Shown: positions 27,078-28,228 of the stretch, piece after piece
Position numbering within the stretch: the first letter of the stretch is position 1
Layout of the letters: every line of letters begins with the position of its first letter
Assembly (NCBI GenBank): GCA_017537745.1
Contig: JAFYKF010000002.1
Location: 1 to 63,350 of the forward strand
Length of the DNA: 63,350 nucleotides
Direction of reading: 5' to 3'
Source: Candidatus Saccharimonadota bacterium
Lineage (GTDB): Bacteria > Patescibacteriota > Saccharimonadia > Saccharimonadales > Saccharimonadaceae
Position numbers and translations under genes: made by a program
The notes under the pieces: model-generated
The model's database searches: none
What the model was told of the DNA's origin: nothing
The model's input: only the letters and a program-made list of their open reading frames with translations

Positions 27078-28228
27078 ATGAACATCGAATCTCCGTAACT
27101 TAGGAAATTGTATTTTTCTTTCACGGCATGGTCGTAGGCATTTTTAAGGTGATCCCAGCCGGCAAAAGCACTTGCGAGCATCAAAACGGTTGATTTGGGG
27201 GCATGAAAATTCGTAATTAAGGCATCAACTATTTGGAATTCGAAGCCTGGATAAATAAAAATATTGTCTTCGCCTTCGGTTTTACCGGTTTTCGCGTAAT
27301 ACTCCAAGGTTCGAGCCACTGTGGTGCCGAGAGCGATAATGCGGTTTCTGGCGGGTCCTGCCAGACCTTCTCCTCCCCCACCTCGCAAGCTCGGCGGGGG
27401 GCCCCCTCCAGGTCTGTCACCCGCCAACAAAACGCTTTTTATCGCCGCAATGGTGTCTTCAGGGATGTGGAACCATTCGGAGTGCATTTTGTGGTCTTCA
27501 ATGTTGTCGGTGCGGATAGGAAGAAAAGTGCCGAGACCAACATGGAGAGTGAGATATTTAATAATCACACCTTTTTTACGAAGACGCTCAAGTAAGTCGT
27601 CGGTCATATTGAGACTAGCAGTAGGAGCAGCGGCTGAGCCCATGTTTTTTGCCCAGACGGTCTGATAACGTTTGGTGTCATTTTCGTCTGCGTCGCGGTG
27701 CAAGTATGGAGGCAAGGGGACTTCGCCGTATTTTTCGGCAAGCTCAGCGAGCGGCATGTCGGATGAAACCTCTGCGATGCCGTTACCCAAAATTCTATCT
27801 ATATTGATTGTGTATTTGTGAACGGTGCGGCCGCGTCCGTCCGGCCCGTCGCCACGGGCGGCCGGCGCTAATTCTCGCGCTGCCGCGCTCCGCAATGCCG
27901 CACCACTCACAAATACACAATCGCCATCGTGGAGTTTTCCGCGGTACATGACGCGCTGGGGTTCGTCGCCATGCTTTTCGAGCACGACGAGTTCGCGCTT
28001 GCGACCATCTGGTAGCTCGCAAAAAAGACGCGAGCGCATGACGCGAGTATCGTTCAAAATAAGTACATCACCTGGATTCAAGAATTCATCTAAATTTTTA
28101 TAATATGAGTCTTGGAGTGCGCCGGTTTTGCGGTTTAGAACTAAAAGTCGGGTAGTGCCGCGTGTTTTAGGAGGATATTTGGCAATCCGTTCGTCGGGCA
28201 AATCATAATTAAAATCAGAGACTAACAT
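27071..28228 (-). CDS. queA: S-adenosylmethionine:tRNA ribosyltransferase-isomerase with two insertions
   Basis: Makes epoxyqueuosine on tRNA after Tgt; 385 aa against about 345. It starts [19 protein letters not shown] and carries [43 protein letters not shown] and [20 protein letters not shown]. Two segments are extra: residues ~102-141 ([20 protein letters not shown] inside) and ~264-296 (Gly/Pro-rich), each encoded by a palindromic element with host-gene arms. A TATAAT box on the minus strand ends 9 nt before the ATG. Operon with tgt. Confidence 0.94.
27341..27435 (-). repeat. Second palindromic element in queA
   Basis: Arms 27341-27368 (GCGGTTTCTGGCGGGT then CCAGACCT) and 27410-27435 are imperfect inverted copies of queA sequence. 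The core is very G+C-rich and contains CCTCGCAAGCTCGGCGG, closer to the cysS/tgt intergenic element than to the uvrC-type core. Translated as [18 protein letters not shown]. Confidence 0.75.
27806..27922 (-). repeat. First palindromic element in queA
   Basis: Arms 27806-27831 and 27897-27922 match as inverted repeats at 24 of 26 positions (GATTGTGTATTTGTGA...GGTGCGGC). The core is nearly identical to that in uvrC and is read in the same frame. Confidence 0.88.

Follow-up and report, generated by a model that had tools for sequence, protein, structure and literature searches.

Short palindromic elements in genes of Candidatus Nanosyncoccus flanked by inverted copies of host sequence of near-constant length

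Genes of Candidatus Nanosyncoccus, a genus of Saccharibacteria, are interrupted by palindromic inserts at which a short stretch of host DNA is present on both sides in inverted orientation. These inserts are probably mobile elements which, on insertion, would make an inverted copy of approximately 16 nt of neighbouring DNA through a single step of snap-back synthesis from the element ends. Such a near-fixed, approximately 16 nt inverted target duplication, made by one-step snap-back with the aid of an enzyme yet unrecognised in Saccharibacteria, could constitute a new mode of insertion, a proposition on which we consider the balance to be even.

The window, meaning the whole 63,350 nt stretch of DNA analysed here, is contig 11 of an 838 kb genome from this genus. 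It contains hairpin inserts in uvrC, tgt, queA (two), uvrB and gatA, and the identities of these host genes were confirmed with NCBIfam. Judged by queA, the relatives are Nanosyncoccus alces and MAGs from ruminant gut, and the closest empty orthologue of the window genes is approximately 75-82% identical; 40 orthologues were aligned for queA, and those of tgt were also compared. An Rfam search of the whole window matched one tRNA alone, leaving the inserts without an Rfam family. A GC-rich intergenic region of approximately 500 nt, at 58782-59293, has a structured appearance and no Rfam match at the gathering threshold. The relevant features of the window are:

4342..4369, plus strand: left arm of the uvrC insert
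4370..4434, minus strand: core of the uvrC insert, family A in reverse orientation
4435..4460, plus strand: right arm of the uvrC insert
25854..27077, minus strand: tgt, a 407-aa open frame with an insert (NCBIfam Tgt)
about 26420..26439, minus strand: left arm of the tgt insert, CATGGCTCAATATGCCTTTT
26440..26516, minus strand: core of the tgt insert, family A
about 26517..26537, minus strand: right arm of the tgt insert, AAAAGGCATATCGCAGCCATG
27071..28228, minus strand: queA, a 385-aa open frame with two in-frame inserts (NCBIfam queA)
27350..27425, minus strand: queA insert 2, from another palindromic family, GGCGGGTCCTGCCAGACCT / AGGTCTGTCACCCGCC, with weaker arms
27806..27831, minus strand: window-left arm of queA insert 1, downstream in the gene, coding for the HKYTI strand, 24/26 nt of which pair with 27897-27922
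27832..27896, minus strand: core of queA insert 1, family A, a GC-rich 65-nt loop with two internal hairpins
27897..27922, minus strand: window-right arm of queA insert 1, upstream in the gene, coding for DCVFVSG
36479..36498, plus strand: left arm of the uvrB insert, which has a core from a family other than A
36499..36539, plus strand: core of the uvrB insert
36540..36559, plus strand: right arm of the uvrB insert
49640..49667, plus strand: left arm of the gatA insert, the arms of which are fully paired except for one bulge
49668..49728, plus strand: core of the gatA insert, from a third family
49729..49757, plus strand: right arm of the gatA insert

The first-pass annotation had described the arms of the first queA insert as a 26-bp inverted repeat with 24 of 26 positions matched, which is the arrangement found at 27806-27831 and 27897-27922, and the inverted arms it reported in uvrC, tgt, uvrB and gatA are likewise present at each locus. 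Its suggestion that the cores are related holds for uvrC, tgt and queA insert 1, all members of family A, but not for gatA and uvrB, which belong to other families. Similarly, the arms are host sequence, as it had claimed, in their outer part, but the innermost 4-5 nt or so are conserved ends of the element. In queA, the window-right arm of insert 1 occupies a D-x-L-x-V strand conserved across empty orthologues. G177, the closest genome available, is empty at both this site and the tgt site, and its queA has no such hairpin; at the second queA site G177 also has an insert, and in other genomes the insert is different or missing.

The core consensus of family A has approximately 100 matches in the genus, and 16 local matches in the window's genome. 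The family was found in 21 of the 60 genomes searched, every one of them in Candidatus Nanosyncoccus, and in none of 24 genomes from other families of the order. The collected copies were reduced to 103 distinct ones; these elements are approximately 110-130 bp long including their arms, and further families exist besides. Locus-specific inverted arms were detected by gapped extension in 92 of the 103 copies, the remaining 11, which scored poorly, having mostly broken or nested cores. Across all 103, the complementarity of the left to the right flank had a median score of 13, compared with 6 after partners had been exchanged between copies, and 75 copies lay above the 99th percentile of this exchanged set. 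The pairing of the arms is not due to chance. Four family A cores (L157, L163, L010 and L107) contain a small second hairpin, of the TTGCCTTCGGCAATTCGCGTCCCAAGGGGCGAGCG type, inside the loop of the first.

Sequence conservation between family A copies ends approximately 4-5 nt past the core on each side, and the outer 15-18 nt or so of the arms differ at every locus. Pairing drops approximately 22 nt from the core edge, and 51 of the 92 armed copies have an outer arm edge 20-24 nt away from that of the core. The host-derived part of the arms has a median length of 18 nt and is shorter than 13 nt in 2% of cases, compared with the 48% expected if lengths followed a geometric distribution with that mean. 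No motif above 0.26 bit was found at the outer arm edge. The check on arm length and host match across all copies, put forward in the first-pass annotation, thus returned a near-constant length, with arms at 92 of 103 copies, including all 11 that are non-coding.

The age of a copy was approximated by the distance of its core to the nearest other copy, a proxy only, because cores within one genome may be homogenised; on this measure, scored arms were present in 41 of the 44 family A copies with a core no more than 3% from another, and arm mismatch was 6.4% in copies with near-identical cores against 5.4-6.2% in the others (Spearman -0.07, p=0.52). Mismatches of approximately 6% are present even in the youngest copies, and growth or decay of the arms with age was rejected, as arm mismatch shows no trend against core distance. 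In G004, three identical cores are flanked by three unrelated pairs of arms. Since near-identical cores carry full-length but unrelated arms, the arms arise at or near insertion, and the timing data favour formation at insertion over slow growth.

These observations bear on the main rival explanation, which we regard as unlikely though still to be reckoned with: quasi-palindrome template switching after insertion, whereby the hairpin would provoke replication to switch templates, so that one flank is rewritten as the other's reverse complement and the match between the arms is afterwards maintained. Such switching makes and maintains hairpins elsewhere (PMC8794818). Between the same-site trmD inserts L193 and L255, from genomes G110 and G178, the arms and inner stems show six double compensatory changes, one single change and none that is broken, as would be expected of such upkeep, but since cores group by genome, pairs of this type may have arisen through separate insertions. 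Template switching would also accommodate the retention of host length at the first queA site, where the spacing of conserved residues is unaltered by the arms; both arms therefore lie on host codons, and the inverted copy may here have replaced host DNA. SbcD, a nuclease partner known to attack hairpins, had no match above the family cut-off among 36 genomes of Saccharibacteria, whereas 13 of 14 control genomes matched. This lack of a match, also in keeping with template switching, may let long hairpins persist, but leaves the restriction of the elements to one genus unexplained. What counts against this explanation is that arms are already complete in young copies, that their quality does not rise with age and that their lengths are narrowly rather than exponentially distributed.

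Comparison with empty orthologues, which the first-pass annotation had proposed on the expectation that one arm should be ancestral and the other new, could tell the two apart in trmD and obgE. The empty trmD sequence is AREFAKDAHYIILC. The A-R-x-F-A codons of the upstream arm are equally conserved in filled (0.575) and empty (0.571) genes, while the downstream residues preceding HYII lose the empty-site pattern (0.10 filled against 0.24 empty), this downstream half of the test being the weaker because the stretch varies among empty genes too. With family A inserts, HYII typically follows NANS or DANP, which correspond to the upstream arm in reverse complement. In trmD, the upstream arm is thus host sequence that has been conserved, and the new arm is the downstream one. 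The polarity is opposite in obgE, where it is the downstream arm of inserts from families C and D that spans conserved (I/L)-A-D-L codons, and its reverse complement forms a new upstream arm, as seen in six genomes (G003, G004, G025, G068, G070 and G077; in G003 the downstream arm is GAAAGAATCTTTTTGGCTGATTT and the upstream arm AAATCAGCACAAAAAGTTCTTTC). As read from the two genes, one arm is ancestral and the other new, and either side may serve as the template. Empty orthologues and the survey of all copies therefore both support the earlier proposal that a stretch of host sequence was copied in inverted orientation across the insert. In the obgE loop, L387 (G072), L388 (G063) and L408 (G035) are short palindromes, perfect or nearly so, that lack a core and may be relics of collapsed inserts.

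The empty sites also speak to the very unlikely alternative that elements target the tips of host hairpins, both arms being present beforehand. Individual cases resemble this: L023 (G007) lies between flanks resembling a native terminator stem with a run of T after it, and the first queA site, when empty, has a slightly raised hairpin percentile of 0.66, with two strong single cases; partial palindromes are present there in G026 and G077. However, when hairpins with loops of 3-12 nt were sought at empty sites and expressed as percentiles relative to other positions in the gene, the means of 0.54 for trmD, 0.56 for the second queA site and 0.60 for tgt placed none of these beyond the gene background, and the occurrence of arms of near-constant length at 92 of 103 sites also argues against this explanation. 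On the basis of the empty-site percentiles, hairpin targets that pre-exist were rejected as a general rule.

Family A copies lie within open frames of at least 150 aa in 90 of 103 cases, and 11 are non-coding. That 87% are in open frames, with no intergenic excess, stands alongside the expectation that most random genic insertions should be lost. In each of queA, tgt, trmD and obgE, a single loop holds, in different genomes, inserts of several families and both orientations, always in frame. The trmD site is filled in 37 of the 90 genomes sampled, adding 11 to 82 residues, and the frame is open in all 37, as it is in queA, tgt and obgE genes with inserts; because reading frames stay open, the inserts are apparently translated. 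The presence of arms in every non-coding copy means that protein constraint does not make them. Nor does selection on mRNA structure appear to do so, although it could in principle make or keep the pairing, for instance if the insert is folded out of the transcript or the transcript undergoes processing, and although the predicted hairpins are very stable and paired changes occur between inserts at the same site. The two orientations relative to the gene are equally represented (43 against 47), and arm mismatches on the mRNA sense strand are not enriched in G-U (37, against 44 A-C; p=0.51); thus the pairing is not kept by selection on mRNA. With the same arms found in non-coding copies, and with inserts holding frames open for apparent translation, this explanation was rejected as still more improbable than targeting of existing hairpins.

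Least probable of all is that the arms belong to the element as a variable component travelling along with it, resembling the host incidentally: in G110, L374 (obgE) and L370 (a P-type ATPase gene), both around 1480-1600, have the core and both arms in common despite the genes being unrelated, so arms can occasionally move with the core, but identical cores have different arms nearly everywhere and conserved host codons lie within arms (REFA in trmD, LADL in obgE), which disfavours this as a general rule. The whole unit of arms plus core was copied once between these two G110 loci.

Under the preferred reading, that of mobile elements which generate an inverted target copy, the elements would be short (about 70-85 nt) and non-autonomous, would comprise several families and would enter permissive loops of conserved proteins in frame. 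At insertion, about 15-18 nt adjoining one end of the element would be copied in inverted orientation at the other; with the inverted copy at the far end, host DNA would therefore form the basal stem of a long hairpin and the element its tip. The element may first join a host 3' end at a nick or fork, after which its complementary ends (of the TCGGGG...CCCCGA type) would snap back, allowing a polymerase to start from the element 3' end and copy the neighbouring host strand over a nearly constant distance. The new end would then be rejoined to the target, a step at which a few host bases would be dropped or retained. In genes, the survivors would be solely those insertions that are in frame, free of stops and within tolerant loops. 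The data show the copy number, the near-constant arm length, the combination of one ancestral and one new arm, the presence of arms at low age and in-frame survival. Against this reading stand the arms shared by the two G110 copies, the fit of both flanks to host codons at the first queA site together with the partial palindromes of empty G026 and G077, the mismatches already seen in the youngest arms, and the lack of Y1 or reverse transcriptase matches in the carriers searched.

Several known systems share features with these inserts. Hairpins created by template switching likewise consist of nearby sequence copied as its reverse complement, with perfect stems and paired changes, but are unlinked to the insertion of mobile elements and have no near-fixed arm length described (PMC8794818). 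Translated genes of nematomorph mitochondria contain perfect inverted repeats with both arms coding; these lack a mobile core, have longer arms (up to 284 bp) and have been suggested to be kept up by repeat conversion (PMC6649704). Magnusiomyces mitochondrial byp elements are palindromic inserts in coding genes as well, but are skipped by ribosomes (PMC6649704), whereas the frame stays open through the Saccharibacteria inserts, as though they were translated.

MITEs and REP/RAYT elements are also short, non-autonomous, hairpin-forming and dispersed. MITEs leave direct target duplications; at the loci read, no direct repeats were noticed, and an inverted target copy was present instead. REP elements rely on Y1 transposases, and the Y1 (HUH) partner of REP/RAYT (IS200/IS605) had no match (PF01797) in 22 genomes from the genus, while being found in other families of the order. 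A retroelement or DGR product would need a reverse transcriptase, and no RVT_1 match was found in G000, G004 or G018, each of which carries many copies; such enzymes are patchy across the genus, with several rich carriers having no match. Neither Y1 nor RVT_1, as candidate partner enzyme, shows a consistent pattern among carriers. One to four reverse transcriptases of approximately 390 aa were found in many genomes of the genus, G001, G005, G007, G012 and G019 among them, and none in G000.

Classification of mobile elements relies on the scar left by insertion, and we know of no described family with a constant-length inverted target copy; within the partial coverage of the literature achieved, neither an element with such a near-constant-length copy nor any report of these elements in Saccharibacteria was found. 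A scar of this kind would suggest that the Candidate Phyla Radiation possesses an enzyme yet to be recognised. The inserts also show that selfish DNA repeatedly lengthens essential proteins of these reduced symbionts at the same loops (TrmD, ObgE, QueA, Tgt, UvrB/C and GatA), with part of each added peptide being host sequence read backwards.

The closest counterparts by behaviour are the palindromic elements of Rickettsia and Wolbachia (RPE/WPE), palindromes of approximately 100-150 bp that form several families and are found in frame in genes for conserved proteins, with the host protein kept (PMC2229807, PMC10969869, PMC3767692). The Saccharibacteria elements are alike in size, in being multi-copy and in their stop-free, in-frame insertion, a likeness of behaviour. 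RPE are described as possessing 12-bp terminal inverted repeats, and whether they duplicate their target is unclear (PMC2229807). The two differ in the origin of these repeats: those of RPE are the element's own, whereas the outer stem of the Saccharibacteria inserts is a locus-specific inverted copy of the host, the innermost 4-5 nt or so alone being common to copies.
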